40,886 nt of DNA, taken from contig JAAZFC010000014.1 of the NCBI GenBank assembly GCA_012511955.1, positions 1-40,886 of the forward strand, read 5' to 3'. Positions within the stretch are counted from its first letter, which is position 1; every line of letters starts with the position of its first letter. The notes under the pieces are model-generated. The model did no database searches. It worked only from the letters and a program-made list of their open reading frames with translations, and had not been told where the DNA came from. Below, in pieces: positions 19,559 through 29,992 of this stretch. This stretch comes from Fibrobacter sp. (lineage in GTDB: Bacteria > Fibrobacterota > Fibrobacteria > Fibrobacterales > Fibrobacteraceae). A program made the position numbers and the translations under genes.

Positions 19559-19661
19559 TTGTATTGCAAAGCTTTTTTTACTTGGTTTATTCCAATTAAG
19601 AATATATATCTTATGCTAGGGATTGTTGGATTATAAACCAACCAAATGTGATGAGGTTATC

Positions 19662-22600
19662 ATGAAAAAAATATTTATGGGTATTCTGCTCCTAGCAATT
19701 ACTGGAGCTTGGGCGGTAAATCACCCTTTTCCGCAAAATTCTAATTATGACGGCAGGGGGATAATAGCAACCAATGCTTCTGCCACCACCATCAAAAGTA
19801 AGTTTGATAGTTGGTTAGGTAATCATTATGTGGAGGAAGGTAACGAGGCTCGTATTAAATTTGACCAGCCAGACTATACCGTGTCCGAAGGCATAGCCTA
19901 TGCTATGATAGCTATGGTGTATTTATCTGATAACAGTAAAAGTTATCAGTCCCAGTTCGATAAACTTTGGAATTATTACAAAAATCGTCGCAATGCCAAT
20001 GGCTTGATGAACTGGAAAATTCAAGGTTTTAACACGAGTTGCAATGGTAACGATTGTAATGGTGCCACCGATGGAGATTTAGATGTGGCTTTTGCTTTAG
20101 CTATGGGCTCATATCAGTTTAAAAACAATAAAAGCTATATGGCCGATGCTAAAGATTTGATTGGAAGGATTCGCACCCACGAAATCGAAAGCAACTCGCC
20201 TCATATTTTGAAACCAGGAGATATGTGGAATGCCAAATATAATCCCAGCTATTTTTCTCCTGCTCACATGGATTTATTTAAAAGCATAGACAACGCTGGC
20301 GCTAGCAGATGGACAGCTGCCTTAGCTGACAACTATACTATGATGAAAGCTAATCAACATGGAACTACAGGTTTACATTCGGATTGGTGTAATAAAGATG
20401 GTTCTGTGAATGGACCAGACGAATTTGGTTACGAAGGTATTCGTATTCCCTGGCGCGTATCCATGGGTTATTTGTGGTATGGGCATAGCGATGCTAAGCT
20501 TATGATGGATAAAATGGCCAATTGGATTAAAAGTAAATACCCCAATCCCAGCAATATAGGTTCTGAATTTAATAGATCTTCTGGTAATGCTATGCATAAT
20601 TATTCTACTGGTGGTTTTACTGGTGCGTTTGCCAGCACTATGTTAACCAATTCGGCTAATCAAAGCTATTTGAATTCTGCTTATACTGCACTGATGTCTA
20701 TTAATGCTAGTAATGCCTATTACCATGGTGGTTTGCAAATTCTCAATGCTTTGTTAATTACTGGTAATATGCCTAATTTGGCAACTAATACCCCAGGTAG
20801 CGGTACAGGAAACACTGGTCCTGGTCAAGCTACTGGTAGTGATATTATCGATGACTTAGAAGACGGCGATCATATTACCAAGTGGGGCGGAGAATGGTAC
20901 ACCTATAATGATCACGAAGATGGTGCCAATTCTACAGTTAGTCCTTTAACTGCCAAAACTCCTCAAAAAATATTGTTTAGTCCTACAGCTGGTGGCGCTC
21001 CTGGTAGCACAGGTTATTCTGCTAAAATTACTTACAGCTTAGATCAAGGTACTTTTGAACACGATCCTTTTGTGGGTTTAGGTATGAATTTGCGTGCCGA
21101 CGAGAAATATCACGATTTAAGTTCCTGCACTGAAATTCAATATAAATACAAAGGTTCTGCCCACCGTTTCCGTGTAGAATCAAATTCTGTAGAAGATTTT
21201 AATTATCATGGTCTTGAGCAGTCTGACGCAACAAGTTGGACAACTGTAAGCTTAGGTTGGAACGATTTATTCCAAGAAAACTGGGGTCCCACTGCACCAA
21301 CAGCGGATATAAATAGCTCCGGTGTTAAAGCCTTTAGTTGGCAAGTACAAGGCGAAACTGGTTTAAGCGGTGATTTGGCCATTGACGATGTGGTTTGCAT
21401 AGGTGGTAAAGGCGATGCTAGCGGTAGTTCTGGAACTACTCCTGGCGGAAATACTTCCTCTAGTTCTTCCAGCCCTGGCGGTAATACCGATCCCGGTGGA
21501 AACACCTCCTCTAGCTCCTCCAGCCCTGGCGGCAATACTAATCCAGGTGGTAATACCACACCTGGTGGCTCTGATAAAGAAGGTTATGTTAGCGGTTTCA
21601 ACATTTGGGGTGTCTATGTAGATAAACTTGGTTCTACTGTTTCACCAGACGAGGGTGAATCTCCTGTGGTGGTTGAAAACGGGAAAAATGTTGCGAAAGC
21701 AGATATGACAGTATTGGCAGAGCCTAAGTGGGAAGAAGGTGTCGATTTAGATTATCCTTTTGTGGGTATGATGATGCAGTTTAAGAAAACTGGCACCGAA
21801 AACTTAAGTGCTGTTAAAACAATCAAAATAACTTATAAATCTTCGGGTAATATTCGCATGGCCTTGGAACAAACAGGTTTGACTGATGGTAATGAATATG
21901 GTATAGATTTAGTTCCTCAAGCTAGTTATGGTGAGGTAATCATAGCCATAACCGACCTCGAGCAACCATCTTGGGCCACAGTTAAAGCCATAAATATGGC
22001 AGCTACCAAGCAAGTTAAATGGGAACTCAAAGAGTCCACTGGTGGAACAGGAAGTATATCTATCCAAAGTTTAGAGTTTGTTGGTTATAATCCTGAAAGT
22101 GGTGGCGGAACTACCCCCGGTGGAAATACAACGCCCGGCGGAACTACAACTCCTGGCACCACTAAAGAAGGTTATGTAGGTGACTTTAATATTTGGGGCG
22201 TATATGTAGATAAGATTGGCTCCACCGTTTCACCCGATGCTGGCGAAAGTCCTGTAGTCATTGAAGGCGGAATTAATGTAGCCAAAGCAGATATGACAGT
22301 ATTGGCAGAACCTACATGGGTGGAAGGTGCTGATTTAGAATATCCTTTTGTGGGTATGATGATGCAGTTAAAAACCACAGGAACTGAAAACTTAAGTGCT
22401 GTTACTGCAATCAAATTAACTTATAAGTCTTCGGGTAATATCCGCATGGCCTTGGAACAAACAGGCTTAGGCGATGGAGCTGAATATGGCATAGATTTAA
22501 CCCCACAAGCAACCCTGACCACGGTAACTATTCCTATTAGCACTCTAGCGCAACCAGATTGGGTTTCAGGAACTCAAGTTAAAGCCATAAATATGGCAGC

Positions 22601-22970
22601 TACCAAGCAAGTTAAATGGGAACTGAAAGAGTCCACTGGCGGAACTGGAAGTATTACAATCTCTGGCATTGAGTTTGTAGGTTATACGCCCAGTACTGGC
22701 AGTGGTAATAACACCCCCGTACTAGAAAATAATGTGGTGCAAAATATGAGCATCAAGGCTGTAGCATCGGGTTTAAGTTTGCAAAGCACTCGTAGCGGAA
22801 TGGTCAAAGTCTCTGTGCATAACATCTATGGCCAAGTGCTTTTTAACCAAAACAATCATTTGGAAGCAGGTGTGAATTACATCGCCTTACCTCAACTAAA
22901 ACAAGGGGTTTATGTGGTGCGCGTAAGTTCTTATGGACAGCATGCCTCCAGAATTATAAGCATCAAATAA
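19662..22970 (+). CDS. Multimodular secreted GH8 cellulase with tandem C-terminal repeats
   Basis: Inverting beta-glucanase of 1,102 residues. Signal peptide 1-18 (GAWA). The GH8 domain spans about 20-375: general acid Glu76 in YTVSEGIAYAM, and the family signature GATDGDLDVAFAL at 134-146. A CBM11-like domain follows at about 394-580 (IIDDLEDGD to LAIDDVVCIGG). Next is a low-complexity linker with Ser6 and PGGNT repeats (about 585-638), then two near-identical 170-residue modules (640-810 and 836-1008, each starting EGYV and NIWGVYVDK) joined by a Gly/Thr/Pro linker. A Por/T9SS-like tail occupies about 1020-1102 (VKVSVHNIYGQVLFNQ to SRIISIK). ATG 19662 is chosen, with GAGG upstream; an in-frame TTG at 19623 precedes it. 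Ends at a strong terminator. The duplicated modules look like carbohydrate-binding units, but their family is not recognised. Confidence 0.9.
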   Translation: MKKIFMGILLLAITGAWAVNHPFPQNSNYDGRGIIATNASATTIKSKFDSWLGNHYVEEGNEARIKFDQPDYTVSEGIAYAMIAMVYLSDNSKSYQSQFDKLWNYYKNRRNANGLMNWKIQGFNTSCNGNDCNGATDGDLDVAFALAMGSYQFKNNKSYMADAKDLIGRIRTHEIESNSPHILKPGDMWNAKYNPSYFSPAHMDLFKSIDNAGASRWTAALADNYTMMKANQHGTTGLHSDWCNKDGSVNGPDEFGYEGIRIPWRVSMGYLWYGHSDAKLMMDKMANWIKSKYPNPSNIGSEFNRSSGNAMHNYSTGGFTGAFASTMLTNSANQSYLNSAYTALMSINASNAYYHGGLQILNALLITGNMPNLATNTPGSGTGNTGPGQATGSDIIDDLEDGDHITKWGGEWYTYNDHEDGANSTVSPLTAKTPQKILFSPTAGGAPGSTGYSAKITYSLDQGTFEHDPFVGLGMNLRADEKYHDLSSCTEIQYKYKGSAHRFRVESNSVEDFNYHGLEQSDATSWTTVSLGWNDLFQENWGPTAPTADINSSGVKAFSWQVQGETGLSGDLAIDDVVCIGGKGDASGSSGTTPGGNTSSSSSSPGGNTDPGGNTSSSSSSPGGNTNPGGNTTPGGSDKEGYVSGFNIWGVYVDKLGSTVSPDEGESPVVVENGKNVAKADMTVLAEPKWEEGVDLDYPFVGMMMQFKKTGTENLSAVKTIKITYKSSGNIRMALEQTGLTDGNEYGIDLVPQASYGEVIIAITDLEQPSWATVKAINMAATKQVKWELKESTGGTGSISIQSLEFVGYNPESGGGTTPGGNTTPGGTTTPGTTKEGYVGDFNIWGVYVDKIGSTVSPDAGESPVVIEGGINVAKADMTVLAEPTWVEGADLEYPFVGMMMQLKTTGTENLSAVTAIKLTYKSSGNIRMALEQTGLGDGAEYGIDLTPQATLTTVTIPISTLAQPDWVSGTQVKAINMAATKQVKWELKESTGGTGSITISGIEFVGYTPSTGSGNNTPVLENNVVQNMSIKAVASGLSLQSTRSGMVKVSVHNIYGQVLFNQNNHLEAGVNYIALPQLKQGVYVVRVSSYGQHASRIISIK
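21579..22091 (+). repeat. GH8 C-terminal module, copy 1
   Basis: Coding repeat of about 510 bases, closely similar at protein and DNA level to 22167-22687. Shared stretches include GTTAAAGCCATAAATATGGC and the following 40 bases with a single difference. The pair is a recent intragenic duplication and a possible recombination site. Confidence 0.8.
22167..22687 (+). repeat. GH8 C-terminal module, copy 2
   Basis: Second copy of the module at 21579-22091, in the same frame and orientation, separated from it by a 75-base Gly/Thr/Pro linker. The differences are scattered and mostly conservative. Confidence 0.8.
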
Positions 22971-24019: not shown

Positions 24020-24052
24020 GGTGGTCTGAATTGCTCCGGCCACCTTTTTTTT
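24020..24052 (+). terminator. Intrinsic terminator after rpsT
   Basis: Stem GGTGGTC / GGCCACC (7 pairs with one T-G) around an 11-base loop, followed by eight T. Confidence 0.88.
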
Positions 24053-24130: not shown

Positions 24131-25015
24131 ATGGCTACATTGCATAGAGGTACGCGTGAAATTTCTTGTAAAATAGTTTATTATGGACCTGGCTTAAGCG
24201 GGAAAACTACTAATTTACAAGTTGTACACCAAAGAATACCACGCGATAAAAAAACAGAAATGATATCTTTATCTACTGAAGGGGATCGTACTTTGTTTTT
24301 TGACTTTTTACCTTTAAATTTAGGCAGCATCCAAGGTTTTAAAACCAAGTTTCAACTTTATACTGTTCCCGGTCAAGTATATTACAATGCCACTCGTAAA
24401 ATGGTACTGCGTGGCGTTGATGGGGTGGTTTTTGTGGCTGATTCCCAGCGCTCTCGCATGGCTGAAAATATTGAGAGTTTACAGAATTTGCGTCAAAATA
24501 TTCAAGAAAACAATTTGAAACTAGATAATTTGCCTTTGGTTATTCAATATAATAAACGCGATTTAGATGATATTTTTTCTGTAGAAGAATTAAATGAGCA
24601 ATTAAACCCTGATGGTTTGCCTTGGTACGCGGCTACAGCACATAATGGAAAAGGGGTAATCTCTACTTTAAAAGCTATTTCTATGTTAGTCATAGAAGAA
24701 TTTAATAGAAATCACGGGGTGTTGCGGAAAGTTATTAAGTCTTTTTCTGATAAAGCGGAAAGTGTGAATGTATCTGCATTTAAGCCAATTAATGCACCTT
24801 CAACCTCTGATTCTGAAGCTAAGAAAGATAAAAAAACTAAAACTCCCATGGCTGCTTCTCCTTTTAAAGCACCTAAGATTTCAAAATCAAAACCTAGCAC
24901 TGGCGTTCCTCGCATCGGTAGTGGTACAGGTTTAAATACCCCTTTGAATCTAAAAATGCCCGAAGAAGAAATTGAGCTTAGACCTTATATCCCTAAAGAT
25001 AAGGATAAAACATGA
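24131..25015 (+). CDS. mglA: MglA-type small Ras-like GTPase with long C-terminal extension
   Basis: Polarity/gliding GTPase. The first 195 or so residues are canonical MglA: P-loop YYGPGLSGKTT (residues 17-27), the MglA-specific TLFFDFLPL and YTVPGQVYYNATRKMVLRG segments, VADSQ, and the NKRD guanine-recognition motif. Typical MglA stops near 195; here about 95 further residues follow, rich in Lys, Ser, Pro and Ala (several KxSK/KxPK stretches) and ending EEIELRPYIPKDKDKT, probably disordered. In Myxococcus, MglA-GTP marks the leading pole and MglB is its GAP. The stop codon overlaps the start of the roadblock gene by 4 bases. It starts a five-gene unit reaching 29992. Confidence 0.92.
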   Translation: MATLHRGTREISCKIVYYGPGLSGKTTNLQVVHQRIPRDKKTEMISLSTEGDRTLFFDFLPLNLGSIQGFKTKFQLYTVPGQVYYNATRKMVLRGVDGVVFVADSQRSRMAENIESLQNLRQNIQENNLKLDNLPLVIQYNKRDLDDIFSVEELNEQLNPDGLPWYAATAHNGKGVISTLKAISMLVIEEFNRNHGVLRKVIKSFSDKAESVNVSAFKPINAPSTSDSEAKKDKKTKTPMAASPFKAPKISKSKPSTGVPRIGSGTGLNTPLNLKMPEEEIELRPYIPKDKDKT

Positions 25016-25434
25016 ATGATTTTTCAATTTACGCAGCTGATGCTGTAAAAATACAAGCTTTACTTCAAGCATATAGACAAAGCACTAATTGCGAATATGT
25101 GCTATTATCGCATCGTGATGGTGCTGTTATTGCAGAAGCTGGCGAAATAGAGAAAGAATCATCGACATTATCGGTCTTATGTACTGCTTCATTTGATTCT
25201 GCTCAACAAATAGGCATGATTTTAGGGGAGCCTGGTTTTCAAGCGGTGTCTTATTTGGGGAAATCTCGCTCTGTTTATATTTCTGCGGTGGGCAATTCCA
25301 TCCTTTTAATGCAAGTGTATCCTGATGATAGATTGCCAAAGAATATTGATTCCTATAGCACAAAATTAGTGGAACTTCTTATAGATGCTGTTCCAGCTTT
25401 TACTCAAGATAGTTCAAACAACCTTTCTCGTTAA
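25012..25434 (+). CDS. mglB: Roadblock/LC7 domain protein, MglB-like
   Basis: 140-residue single roadblock/LC7-domain protein, the expected GTPase-activating partner of MglA. Recognisable roadblock features are the opening helix, the hairpin YVLLSHRDGAVIAEAGE, a central helix starting SSTLSVLCTASFDSAQQIG, and the strand SVYISAVGNSILLMQVYPDD. The ATGA overlap with mglA implies coupled translation and a fixed ratio. The order mglA-mglB is the reverse of Myxococcus mglBA. The assignment as MglB depends mainly on context, because roadblock domains are hard to subdivide by eye. Confidence 0.83.
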   Translation: MNDFSIYAADAVKIQALLQAYRQSTNCEYVLLSHRDGAVIAEAGEIEKESSTLSVLCTASFDSAQQIGMILGEPGFQAVSYLGKSRSVYISAVGNSILLMQVYPDDRLPKNIDSYSTKLVELLIDAVPAFTQDSSNNLSR

Positions 25435-25441
25435 TAGTTAG

Positions 25442-25891
25442 ATGCCCTCCAGGCGAATACGAAAAACTGTGTGGGCGGGTCTAATATTAGTGGTGCTTTA
25501 TTTATTAAGCCGCATTGCATTTTACACTTTAGATCCAGAAAACATCATAGACTTAGATAAAGGGGATAATTTAAACGCAAAACAAGAAGTTTATGCAATG
25601 TGTGCTCATATAGTAGATGGCAAACCGCTGGTTTTAGATTCTGTTTTTTCTGTAAAAAAGAATATTTACGCTTATTCACAGCATTCCCATAGAACTCATT
25701 TAATGCATCATTGGTTTCTTGACTCAACTTTAGTTTTTAGCCATCTCTGTTCTTATGATACTGTGTGTATAAGCACTGACCACAAAAAAATGCAACCTGG
25801 GGAGTGGTCGGTGGATTTTGTTGAAGGTGACAAGTTAAAGTCAACAGTGCAGTTTCGCGTATTAGCTAAAGAAAATCCATGCCGAAAATAA
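25442..25891 (+). CDS. Membrane-anchored DUF2914-like protein
   Basis: 149 residues with one N-terminal membrane segment (VWAGLILVVLYLLSRIAF, residues about 10-27) and a periplasmic domain. The domain has the pattern of DUF2914: a V.A.CAHIVDGKP.. opening, a central HHWFLDSTLVFSHLC strand pair, and MQPGEWSVDFVEGDK near the end. The function of that domain is unknown. It begins 7 bases after mglB and its last 13 bases overlap the next gene, so it belongs to the same transcript. Its membrane topology would place it between the cytoplasmic MglA/MglB pair and the outer-membrane proteins encoded next. Confidence 0.6.
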   Translation: MPSRRIRKTVWAGLILVVLYLLSRIAFYTLDPENIIDLDKGDNLNAKQEVYAMCAHIVDGKPLVLDSVFSVKKNIYAYSQHSHRTHLMHHWFLDSTLVFSHLCSYDTVCISTDHKKMQPGEWSVDFVEGDKLKSTVQFRVLAKENPCRK

Positions 25892-28599
25892 CTCAAGGAA
25901 TATTAACTGGTTTGCTACTAGTTTTTTTGTCCAATGTTTTTGCTGAAACTAGGGGCTTGTCTTTGGTAGATGTTAAAATTTGGGATATGCTTGAAAAAAA
26001 TGCTTATGCTTTATATGAAAAATCCTCTCAATTAGCCCCTCAAGAAAAAGATTCTCTTTGGATAAATGGGCATAAAAGCATGCGTGTAGTAGTAGGTGAG
26101 GGTGGCTCTGAGGTGCAACAAGAGCTGCGCTTACAAATGCAGGGAGAAGTGGCCGCAGGCTGGTATTTAGAGGGACTGCTGGTAGATGAAGGACTTTCGG
26201 TGGGAGAATTGCGAGTTTCTACTCTGCAAGATGTTAGCGCCATGTATTTGCGTCTATATAAGGGTAATGTGATTTTTACTTTAGGTGAAACAGAATTTAA
26301 TCATGAGGGGTCGTTTTTAGATGATTTTAGCCATGCTACGGCGGGATTTAGCTTAAAATCTGCAGGGAAAAAGGTGAAAAGTCAAGTGGCTTTAGGACAA
26401 AGTTCAGCGCACACTAAAACAACAGTTTTCCAAGGTTACGATGGTCAAAGACAAGGCTATTTAGTTGGTGAAAACAATGAGTTTGTTGCGGTGGTTCCAA
26501 ATTCTGAGACGGTTTGGTGGCAGGGTAAAAAATTGGAGCGGGGAGTGGATTATCGCATGGAATATGTGGGTGGTGTTTTAGATTTTTTGGGAAGTAATAG
26601 CCCGTCTAGCCGAGATGAAGTGGTGGTAACTTACGAAGAATGGGAAGAAGATTCAGGCAGAGATTTTTTGGGAATAGATTTACTTGGAAAATGGAAATAT
26701 GCCAATATACGAGCATCAGTTATAGATATAACTGGAGATTCTCTAGTAGCACCCCGAGGGTTAATGTTGGCAGGAGCGGCTATTAAACCAACGAGCTTTT
26801 TGTGGTTAGAAAGTGAGTTGTTTCATAATCCATATCAGCAAGCTAATTTGTGGAGTTATAATTTGGGAAGCGATTCGGGTTGGCAAGCTAATAATCGTAA
26901 TTTTGCTTTTTCTGTTCAGGGAATGCATTTAGAAGAAGGCTTTAGTGCATTAAATTTTAATGGATTGCAAAATTACTGGAACAATCATATTTTACAACGA
27001 CATTGGTATTTAAAAGATTTGGATAGTGCAGAGAGTAAAAATTATCAACAATTACGCTGGGGGCTTAGGCCGGGCGCAAATTTAAACACTAGGATTGACT
27101 GGGGATATAAATATGGTGAAGATTGGAATGCCCAAAGATGGTCTTGGCTTTGGGAGCGCAAAACAACGAAATCCAAAGTAGATTGGGAACTTGCACACAT
27201 AGATTCTTGGCAAAAGCAACAGCAAAGTAGCGGATGGCAATCTTCGTTAAATATGCAGACTTATTTAAATAATTTGCAAATTTATGGTGGAGTATTTGGA
27301 GCGCAAAAAGAACAGCCTGCAAAAGCTGAGCATTATGAATGGGAGTTAAATTCAGGGATTAAGAGTGATTTTTGGTTGTTTCAAGATCTGCATGAAGATA
27401 TAAAATGGGAAGGAGTAGCGCAATTAAAAAATAAATATTTGGTGGATTCAATGCAAAGAATGGTATGGACCCAAAGCTTTAATATGGGAGAAGGGTGGTG
27501 GCGTTGGAATTCATTTGTGCAGGGACAATGGTGGTTGCATGGCAATGAATACCAACAAAATTATATGGGGGCTTCTGAGCAACGCTTAGATTTGTGGCAT
27601 CGAGCATGGGAATTAAACCTTTTGCATCGCATGGATCTCACCGCAGAACAGCTTTTTAGGCCAGTTTACAAAAAAGTGGAGCCTGGTTTGGGAGATGTAG
27701 TGTGGGATAGTCTTAGCGGAGAGTTTATAGAGGGTGTAGATCAAGGGGATTATATTTTTGATGGAAGCATAAGGGACGATTCTTTGGCGGCCATACGCAC
27801 CGCTGATGCGCAATTTAGCGCTGATTTATGGTGGTTTCCGCGGGAGCAGTTTGCTGTACGCCATGGAATTTTAGCAGATTTGAGTTTAGGAGCAAGTCTT
27901 TTATTGCACGGCCGCGATACCACCAAGCTTTGGGGAAGCTTACCTTGGAAAAAAAGCCATTTAAATAATCTTGTGGATGGACTTTATGGATGGTCTTTAA
28001 AAACTCGGTGGCACCCAAGTTCTGGCAAATTAAATGCGCTTTTAAGCTGGGGGAGCGAATCCCAAAGATCTGGCGGAACTTATGCGGGGGCCGAGTCGCG
28101 GGGTTTTCAGCAAATTGATTTGCATTGGCAATTGCACAAAAACTTGCGGTGGCAAGGCTTTGGTGAGCGAGAACAGGTAGAAAGGACTCTTCCCAATGCA
28201 ATGCGCTGGACATCTTGGTCGCAAAAACACTACTTATTCTGGGATTTTAAAACCCATTGGGTAGGAGCGCCAAGTTTTAGATGGCAACAAAGTGATGGTG
28301 CCTCTCTTTGGGGCAACTTACACACCAAATTATGGATTCCAGGACTTTTGATTCAATGGCAACCCTATGGTTTGTCGGTGGCGAGCATAGAGTACGGTTG
28401 GGCTTATTTACAAAGCGCCGATGCTTTAACGCCCTATAGGCTTAGTCAGGGCTATGCTCCAGGAATAACCCATCGAATAGAACTGACTGCAGACTATGCA
28501 GCCAAAGACGGTCTTTTATTTAGTCTTAGTTATTTGTTGCGTGGAGATGCTAGTGCTTGGTTCCAAAAATTAAGCGGGGAGGCGCATCTTGATTTTTAA
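25879..28599 (+). CDS. Large Trp-rich outer-membrane beta-barrel protein with SprA-like motif
   Basis: 906 residues with a signal peptide (about 1-22, NVFAE) and no other membrane helix. Residues about 125-255 hold the most recognisable part: LGETEF, FLDDF, a GYDGQRQGYLVGENNEF stretch, then SETVWWQGKKLERGVDYRMEY and the following VVVTYEEWEE. This G/S-E-x-V-W-x-(D/Q)GKxLxRGxDYxxxY pattern is seen in SprA-type (Bacteroidota T9SS) and related Fibrobacter outer-membrane proteins. The rest is a long run of alternating amphipathic strands, very rich in Trp, ending in LDF, a terminal aromatic as in barrel proteins. It is much shorter than SprA (about 2,400 residues). It may be an export barrel or a surface-attached scaffold; no exact family is claimed. 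Confidence 0.55.
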   Translation: MPKITQGILTGLLLVFLSNVFAETRGLSLVDVKIWDMLEKNAYALYEKSSQLAPQEKDSLWINGHKSMRVVVGEGGSEVQQELRLQMQGEVAAGWYLEGLLVDEGLSVGELRVSTLQDVSAMYLRLYKGNVIFTLGETEFNHEGSFLDDFSHATAGFSLKSAGKKVKSQVALGQSSAHTKTTVFQGYDGQRQGYLVGENNEFVAVVPNSETVWWQGKKLERGVDYRMEYVGGVLDFLGSNSPSSRDEVVVTYEEWEEDSGRDFLGIDLLGKWKYANIRASVIDITGDSLVAPRGLMLAGAAIKPTSFLWLESELFHNPYQQANLWSYNLGSDSGWQANNRNFAFSVQGMHLEEGFSALNFNGLQNYWNNHILQRHWYLKDLDSAESKNYQQLRWGLRPGANLNTRIDWGYKYGEDWNAQRWSWLWERKTTKSKVDWELAHIDSWQKQQQSSGWQSSLNMQTYLNNLQIYGGVFGAQKEQPAKAEHYEWELNSGIKSDFWLFQDLHEDIKWEGVAQLKNKYLVDSMQRMVWTQSFNMGEGWWRWNSFVQGQWWLHGNEYQQNYMGASEQRLDLWHRAWELNLLHRMDLTAEQLFRPVYKKVEPGLGDVVWDSLSGEFIEGVDQGDYIFDGSIRDDSLAAIRTADAQFSADLWWFPREQFAVRHGILADLSLGASLLLHGRDTTKLWGSLPWKKSHLNNLVDGLYGWSLKTRWHPSSGKLNALLSWGSESQRSGGTYAGAESRGFQQIDLHWQLHKNLRWQGFGEREQVERTLPNAMRWTSWSQKHYLFWDFKTHWVGAPSFRWQQSDGASLWGNLHTKLWIPGLLIQWQPYGLSVASIEYGWAYLQSADALTPYRLSQGYAPGITHRIELTADYAAKDGLLFSLSYLLRGDASAWFQKLSGEAHLDF

Positions 28600-29992
28600 A
28601 AATTTAGCGATGTTTTTAATTTTGTCGTCTCTTTTGTGCAGTGAGGCCAAAGCTAAGAATGTTTATTGCCCCGACCAAAGCGTGTTAAAGCGAGTTGCGC
28701 TTCAAGATAATTCCGATTCTTTGTGGCAAAACACTTCTTGGGAAAATTTAGGCGATTATGGCGCTTTACGGGCTAAAATAGATGATTTGCTGGTTTGGTA
28801 TCAAAATCATGGTTTTGTTTTTGCACAAATAAAAATTCATCACCAAAATTGCGCGCCTATGGTGGCAGTGGAATTACACAAAGGAGAAGCTTGGCTATGG
28901 GATTATGCTCAATCTCAAAATAATGTGGGAGTTAAGCCCGAAAATTTATCTAAAATGGCTTTAATTAAACGGGGAGAACCAGCTAATTTGGCAAGCTTAG
29001 AGGCAAGTCGTCGCTTATTGGCACGGCGAGCATATTTCCATGTAGGAGACTCAGTGCAATTGTTTCGCCAAGCTGATCGCAATTTACTAATACCAGTTTT
29101 TGATTTAGAAAGTCGTGCCCATAGCAGTGTCGAGGGCTTTTTTATGTACGCTCAAGATGATTTTGAAAAAAAATGGCAAAGCTGGCTGCGTTTAGATCTG
29201 CGCAATATTGGTGGAGCAGGTAGGGATTTTTCTCTATGGGGGCGGCAACTTGATGATACAAGAGAATTACAATTGCATTGGCTAGAATGGGCCTTATTTA
29301 GCACTCATTTGGATCTAAACTTAGATTTGCATATAGAAGCAGACAGTGTGGAAAATCATTGGGGTTTTCACGGTGCTTTGGGCTGGCAATACGATTATAA
29401 TTGGCATTTTAGTATGGGCTATTTGGCTCGGACTATGGAAAAAACAAGGGCTTCTCAAGGGGGAGAAGTGAGCGTAGTATATGACAGCCGTGACCAAGTG
29501 CCTTTAACTCGTAGCGGATTGCGGTGGGAGTCGCAAAATCAATGGTGGCAAAGGCCAAATGGCGCTAATAAAGGATATTTCTCCACTCATTGGCGAGGAG
29601 AGTTGTATTACCCTTTAGCCCAAAGTTTATCAGCAAAACTAGACTTGCGTTATCAAACTTTGTGGCCTCGCAAAAACAACTACAATTCTCGGGAACTATT
29701 TAAATTAGGCGGAGAAATTTTACCAGGGTATTGGCCGAACTCTATTTTAAGTCCACAGTTTGCGTTGCTAAATGTCTCATTACACAAGTATTTTTCCCAA
29801 ACCGCTTTGGGGGCTTTTGCAGAAATTGCTTGCTTGCGCACCCTAAATCCAGGTTTAGATCTTTTATGGGATTATGGTGTGTCTTTAGAACAGAATCAAA
29901 GGGGGATCACCGTATTTATGCAAATCGCCTGGGCTCGTGAAAGTAGCTTTTTAGAGGCTTTACTTAGTTTAGGAGTACGCACGAATTTCTAG
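28589..29992 (+). CDS. Omp85/BamA-like outer-membrane protein with one POTRA-like domain
   Basis: 467 residues. Signal peptide about 1-22 (EAKAK). Residues about 45-105 look like a POTRA domain (a helix with GDYGALRAKIDDLLVWYQN, then HGFVFAQIKI and MVAVELHKGEAW), followed by a linker with a second short alpha/beta stretch. A C-terminal barrel has the Omp85 feature VVYDSRDQVPLTRSGLRWE and ends in NF. Length resembles two-partner or TamA-like small Omp85 members rather than BamA (about 800). The start is a TTG at 28589 because a near-perfect GGGGAGG lies 6 bases before it; ATG 28610 would shorten the signal peptide. The start overlaps the previous gene by 11 bases, so the two outer-membrane proteins are probably made together and may work as a pair. 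Confidence 0.65.
   Translation: MIFKNLAMFLILSSLLCSEAKAKNVYCPDQSVLKRVALQDNSDSLWQNTSWENLGDYGALRAKIDDLLVWYQNHGFVFAQIKIHHQNCAPMVAVELHKGEAWLWDYAQSQNNVGVKPENLSKMALIKRGEPANLASLEASRRLLARRAYFHVGDSVQLFRQADRNLLIPVFDLESRAHSSVEGFFMYAQDDFEKKWQSWLRLDLRNIGGAGRDFSLWGRQLDDTRELQLHWLEWALFSTHLDLNLDLHIEADSVENHWGFHGALGWQYDYNWHFSMGYLARTMEKTRASQGGEVSVVYDSRDQVPLTRSGLRWESQNQWWQRPNGANKGYFSTHWRGELYYPLAQSLSAKLDLRYQTLWPRKNNYNSRELFKLGGEILPGYWPNSILSPQFALLNVSLHKYFSQTALGAFAEIACLRTLNPGLDLLWDYGVSLEQNQRGITVFMQIAWARESSFLEALLSLGVRTNF

Follow-up and report, generated by a model that had tools for sequence, protein, structure and literature searches.

The window, i.e., the whole stretch of 40,886 nucleotides that was analysed, carried five same-strand genes, which are listed with their associated features in Table 1. 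The ORF list gave, in order, an overlap of 4 bases, a gap of 7 and overlaps of 13 and 11 bases at the junctions, and these coordinates confirmed the tight arrangement that had been described in the earlier note. The 11-base overlap between the barrel gene and omp85 depended on the TTG start of omp85; an in-frame ATG at 28610, which was 21 bases after the TTG, was an alternative start and would leave a 10-base gap instead. The hairpin between rpsT and mglA had a stability of -12.8 kcal/mol (z -3.43), and none of the shuffled sequences (0/200) was equally stable. This hairpin was the probable 5′ boundary of the five-gene unit. Given the hairpin and T8 run before mglA, the unit probably had its own promoter, and a scan for consensus promoters gave matches at chance level only. 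On the 3′ side, omp85 was followed by a convergent lipoyl-synthase-like gene, which overlapped the omp85 end by 4 bases. The overlapping or tight junctions, together with the terminator before mglA, suggested that the five genes may form a single transcript. Just upstream, positions 19623-22970 of the window encoded a secreted protein of ~1,100 aa with a C-terminal T9SS type A sorting domain (TIGR04183, 23.7 bits against a cut-off of 23); by eye, its N-terminal part resembled a GH8-type cellulase.

Table 1. Genes and sequence features of the five-gene locus, in window positions.
Feature	Position	Strand	Description
Terminator-like hairpin and T8 run	24020-24052	+	Between rpsT and mglA
mglA	24131-25015	+	294 aa, ATG start; small GTPase of MglA group 1, extended at the C-terminus by ~100 residues
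MglA tail peptide EEEIELRPYIPK	24962-24997	+	Conserved, near the MglA end, behind a variable linker
mglB	25012-25434	+	140 aa, ATG start; roadblock/LC7 protein
DUF2914-like gene	25442-25891	+	149 aa, ATG start
Barrel gene	25879-28599	+	906 aa, ATG start; large outer-membrane beta-barrel protein
SprA-like segment of the barrel protein	26488-26640	+	Residues 204-254
omp85	28589-29992	+	467 aa, TTG start; Omp85-family protein

Residues 3-196 of MglA matched the solved Myxococcus MglA at 1.2e-71. According to the alignment of 17 orthologues, the P-loop GPGLSGKTTN, R53 (the intrinsic arginine finger) and the TVPGQ motif T78-Q82 with the catalytic Q82 were invariant. This motif set and the position of mglB directly downstream, with the 4-base overlap, agreed with the published definition of group-1 MglA (PMC4316618). 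The length of the protein placed it outside the small single-domain set of the same study (<240 aa), which is a size class and not a catalytic criterion, and extensions of similar or greater length were the rule across the phylum. The mean pairwise identity was 0.89 for the G domain, 0.45 for the linker and 0.76 for the tail with its conserved peptide EIELRPYVPKKK. The tail motif was present in 30 of 30 further MglA proteins from the family, and the sister family also had it. A tail that is conserved while the linker before it varies resembles a docking peptide, as far as the alignment can tell. The link between the tail and the operon may reflect common descent alone, because the two families with the tail were sisters. 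The MglA proteins of other Fibrobacterota families (L140-L157) had long proline-rich tails, with ORFs of 429-760 aa and clade-specific conserved C-terminal ends.

The window copy of MglB alone scored 21.6 bits, which was below the Pfam Robl_LC7 cut-off of 23. The family profile, built from 18 orthologues, found the solved MglB at 5.2e-10 and identified the roadblock domain. The protein was a divergent MglB and was presumed to be the GAP of MglA. In a table published in 2010, MglA of Fibrobacter succinogenes was listed with 313 aa and without MglB (PMC3000849); unlike in that table, mglB adjoined mglA in every family genome whose MglA neighbourhood was read. The third gene was assigned as DUF2914-like through its orthologues, seven of which (7/18) matched PF11141 with a best value of 1e-5; the window copy had no match. 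The predicted layout of this protein was a basic N-terminus, one membrane span at ~residues 10-30 (by eye) and then a periplasmic domain, in which two cysteines, C103 and C109, were invariant in the orthologue alignment.

The product of omp85 scored 25.5 bits for PF01103, above the cut-off of 24. The AlphaFold model (pLDDT 80.9) had two POTRA-like units (~residues 57-161) and 16 strands, and the Foldseek search returned the BamA fold at E 1.9e-19. On the basis of the POTRA units and 16-strand barrel of the model, the protein is a clear member of the Omp85 superfamily. The housekeeping BamA was rejected as its identity, since TIGR03303 gave 28.1 bits against a cut-off of 297; the true BamA was another gene of the genome (947 aa, 399 bits; G000:C99).

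The barrel protein had no Pfam match, none of the searched libraries contained a model of its family, and its profile had no match among the solved structures. The AlphaFold model was of modest confidence (pLDDT 71.9, pTM 0.59) and consisted of nearly all beta strands, with ~41 strands that were at least 8 residues long according to our own count. The top Foldseek matches were mostly outer-membrane proteins with TM values near 0.2; given these values and the modest confidence, the model supported the description as a large outer-membrane barrel and no finer class. The gene identities that had been claimed from the sequence, the operon structure and the assignment to cytoplasm, inner membrane, periplasm and outer membrane were supported.

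The relation of the barrel to SprA was explored with profiles. On the window barrel, TIGR04189 gave E 0.0023 and 15.2 bits over 51 residues, below the equivalog cut-off of 200 bits, and 13 of the 21 barrel family members matched this model (best 5.7e-6). The hhalign comparison of the barrel with the Fibrobacterota SprA gave 96% at E 3.6e-9 over 208 columns; the other alternative hhalign alignments were noise, with no homology along most of the >2,000 aa SprA. The low score, the limited number of columns and a separate SprA in the window's genome led to the rejection of the barrel as the T9SS translocon SprA itself. The SprA-like segment, the presence of SprA in 168/168 phylum genomes and the T9SS-tailed protein encoded just upstream are consistent with a T9SS accessory, in which the barrel would be a second, smaller translocon or a SprA partner that is assembled by its own Omp85. 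This reading was very unlikely: the similarity was confined to the 208 columns and a score far from the cut-off, the operon had no T9SS gene, and the co-occurrence of SprA and the barrel was uninformative because SprA was universal in the phylum genomes. The SprA match of the window's genome (L184, G000:C1:14500-24500) contained one in-frame TGA and had a longest ORF of 1,757 aa, compared with 2,100-2,450 aa in relatives, which indicated either a broken gene or an assembly fault.

The conservation of the gene order was evaluated across the phylum. The complete order MglA-MglB-DUF2914-barrel-Omp85 occurred in 17/20 family neighbourhoods, and the other three, all from genus g4, held the barrel alone. 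Moreover, in 89 of the 92 Fibrobacteraceae genomes, the barrel gene lay within 6 kb after mglA, and the two shared contig and strand. Two of the three exceptions had MglA split between contig ends, and in the third the barrel was on a different contig from mglA and the DUF2914 gene; all three look like assembly breaks. The ORFs of the relatives were called mechanically, so that their starts and exact junctions were approximate. The three envelope proteins had identities of only 21-26% in the most distant pairs. An order that is kept despite such low identity is more than chance, and its survival over so deep a divergence speaks for a functional link. In the sister family f2 (L099), the order was mglA-mglB-barrel-omp85 without the DUF2914 gene, and the interval between mglB and the barrel was empty. 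Hence, the order was conserved across the Fibrobacteraceae, and the sister family had it apart from DUF2914; the possibility raised in the earlier note that it was unique to the window's genome was rejected by the counts above.

The range of the barrel was widened by a profile search in 65 genomes, most of them from other families, and barrel matches were found in 138/168 phylum genomes, although some of the weak ones were the SprA segment and not the barrel. The barrel and Omp85 co-occurred across the class. The barrel-omp85 pair was adjacent without MglAB in families f3, f4 and f14. Directly before the pair, f3 and f4 (L092-L098) had related genes of ~300 residues without a confident Pfam match, several of which were apparently lipoproteins. 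In family f5, mglA-mglB was followed by priA and then by omp85, and the barrel lay elsewhere; an apparent 1,062-residue omp85 fusion in this family was rejected as a frame read-through over priA. A scan of genome contigs with MglA gave MglA genes of Verrucomicrobiota, none of which had the other four genes nearby. The barrel tree contained long branches, including that of the window copy, and for this reason no fine history was drawn from it.

Natural losses of the genes were examined as well. MglA was absent from 12/12 genomes of genus g4 and from the single genome of genus g2, and MglB was absent from 11/11 of these MglA-less genomes that were searched (g4: 10/10). Genus g4 kept the barrel in 9/12 genomes, Omp85 in 8/8 searched and DUF2914 in 8/12, on different contigs. 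The four genomes of genus g15 had neither MglA, MglB, PilT nor PilB and retained the barrel and SprA, with omp85 adjoining the barrel in the three g15 genomes that were examined closely. Single absences mean little because some assemblies were 60-80% complete; joint absences carry weight. Judged from gene content, the losses separate two modules, i.e., MglAB and the envelope genes, and the idea that the barrel pair requires MglAB was rejected for g4 and g15. The persistence of the envelope genes indicated that they can do without MglAB and argues that they have their own job, which MglAB could at most control. Genus g15 (G160-G163) was a small-genome genus that also had no FlgK. At four loci of genus g4 (L043, L056, L192 and L195), flgK preceded the barrel on the same strand at a distance of 10-72 bases. 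Other g4 members had unrelated barrel neighbours; flagella were therefore rejected as the common partner of the barrel, and the proximity to flgK was read as opportunistic.

The surroundings of MglAB outside the family were also informative. A TPR gene (~700 aa) and a DUF4388 gene preceded mglA at 14 of the 19 MglA loci of other Fibrobacterota families (L140, L142-L148, L150-L154 and L156); of the five loci without them, three were all from family f8 and two were on short contigs. In Myxococcus xanthus, the TPR protein SgmX mediates the action of MglA-GTP on pili (PMC7519303). By analogy, TPR-DUF4388-mglA-mglB is possibly an SgmX-like effector locus, and these neighbours suggest that MglAB serves pili in this phylum. 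PilT was over the cut-off in every genome with MglA; because PilT was found in nearly all genomes, this overlap carries little weight, apart from genus g15. According to the earlier note, the GTPase could position or gate the barrel complex, which is a hypothesis. The envelope genes persisted where MglA and MglB had both been lost, and the TPR and DUF4388 neighbours of MglAB elsewhere pointed to the usual polarity role for type IV pili.

A shared transcript with separate jobs would fit many of these observations. MglAB would define the pole at which type IV pili act, probably by way of a TPR effector, and DUF2914, the barrel and Omp85 would perform an unrelated envelope task, with the operon serving only for common expression, e.g., on surfaces. 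The 14 TPR-DUF4388 loci and the SgmX precedent, the PilT in all MglA genomes, the joint absence of MglA, MglB, PilT and PilB in g15, and the envelope genes that persisted in genomes lacking MglAB were in its favour. However, genus g4 kept PilT (11/12) and PilB-like ATPases (9/10 searched) without MglAB, which indicated that the pili were independent of MglAB there too, and an order kept in 89/92 genomes and in the sister family exceeded what chance cohabitation needs. A shared transcript with separate jobs is a plausible account that stays clearly below an even chance.

An envelope system under spatial control, with a barrel assembled by Omp85, was favoured over mere co-transcription, and its chance was close to even, if slightly short of it. 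In this view, MglA and its GAP MglB, as a polarity switch in the cytoplasm, would be joined with an outer-membrane module in one transcription unit. Omp85 would insert or hold the large barrel, the DUF2914 protein would be an inner-membrane-anchored periplasmic link to the module, and MglA-GTP, via its conserved C-terminal peptide, may mark the cell site where the envelope complex is built or active. Here, we infer that the genes are co-transcribed, that Omp85 acts on the barrel, that DUF2914 forms the bridge and that MglA contacts the envelope proteins at all. The orders mglA-mglB-barrel-omp85 in f2 and mglA-mglB-priA-omp85 in f5, and the retention of both the barrel and Omp85 when dispersed in g4, were consistent with spatial control, as were the five-gene order of the family despite the low identities, the tight junctions, the adjacent barrel-omp85 pair in f3, f4 and f14, and the conserved MglA tail peptide. 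The envelope genes without MglAB in g4 and g15, the TPR and DUF4388 neighbours of MglAB outside the conserved order, and the chance level of the promoter scan were against it.

Pili and gliding are the known targets of MglA control, and F. succinogenes, a member of Fibrobacterota, is a major rumen cellulose degrader. According to the genome paper of strain S85, no motility had been demonstrated, and the species was described as not actively motile (PMC3079729). An MglAB pair that shares an operon with outer-membrane proteins throughout the family raises the question of what the polarity GTPase controls there. The operon might supply the outer-membrane components of a gliding machine of the Agl-Glt type that is switched by MglA, as in Myxococcus, where MglA drives this machine; homologues of the Glt/Agl core were reported from a Fibrobacteres genome (PMC3169522). 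The outer-membrane group-A genes were placed in Deltaproteobacteria only by the same study (PMC3169522), no Glt/Agl gene was recognised within the operon, and the description of F. succinogenes as not actively motile also spoke against gliding, which made this the least likely of the readings considered. In a stronger form of spatial control, MglA, in bacteria not known to move, would directly place or gate an outer-membrane machine, which would consist of the very large single-chain barrel and its own Omp85 assembly protein, through the inner-membrane DUF2914 link and the docking peptide at the C-terminus. This form was considered unlikely; if it were true, it would be a new output of polarity control by bacterial small GTPases. 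If MglA positions a surface complex, cell polarity would be tied to the contact with plant fibre.

No paper describing the five-gene operon or the function of DUF2914 was found in the literature searched, with most subscription papers outside reach. MglA, MglB, Omp85 and DUF2914 are known families; the genomic context, the envelope module and the conserved MglA tail peptide are new. Compared with the MglA/MglB module of M. xanthus and Thermus, the locus had the same group-1 GTPase with P-loop, R53 and TVPGQ and the same roadblock MglB, but MglA had a tail of ~100 residues with a conserved peptide, and the operon continued with genes for one inner-membrane and two outer-membrane proteins. The ancestral TPR-DUF4388-MglA-MglB locus of other Fibrobacterota families shared the same MglA and MglB, usually with one MglA per genome, whereas the neighbours differed and the MglA tails were longer with other conserved ends. 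The likeness to the Agl-Glt machinery of Myxococcus was in idea only, namely an MglA switch combined with outer-membrane proteins, and the operon differed in its lack of any recognised Glt/Agl gene. SprA/Sov, the outer-membrane translocon of the T9SS, resembled the barrel in ~200 aligned columns and in being a large outer-membrane barrel, whereas the barrel had 906 aa against about 2,100-2,450 and no further detectable homology. Finally, the Omp85 protein shared POTRA units, a 16-strand barrel and the BamA fold with BamA and TamA of the Omp85 superfamily, and differed from them in its length of 467 aa, its two POTRA-like units and its position beside the gene for a large barrel.
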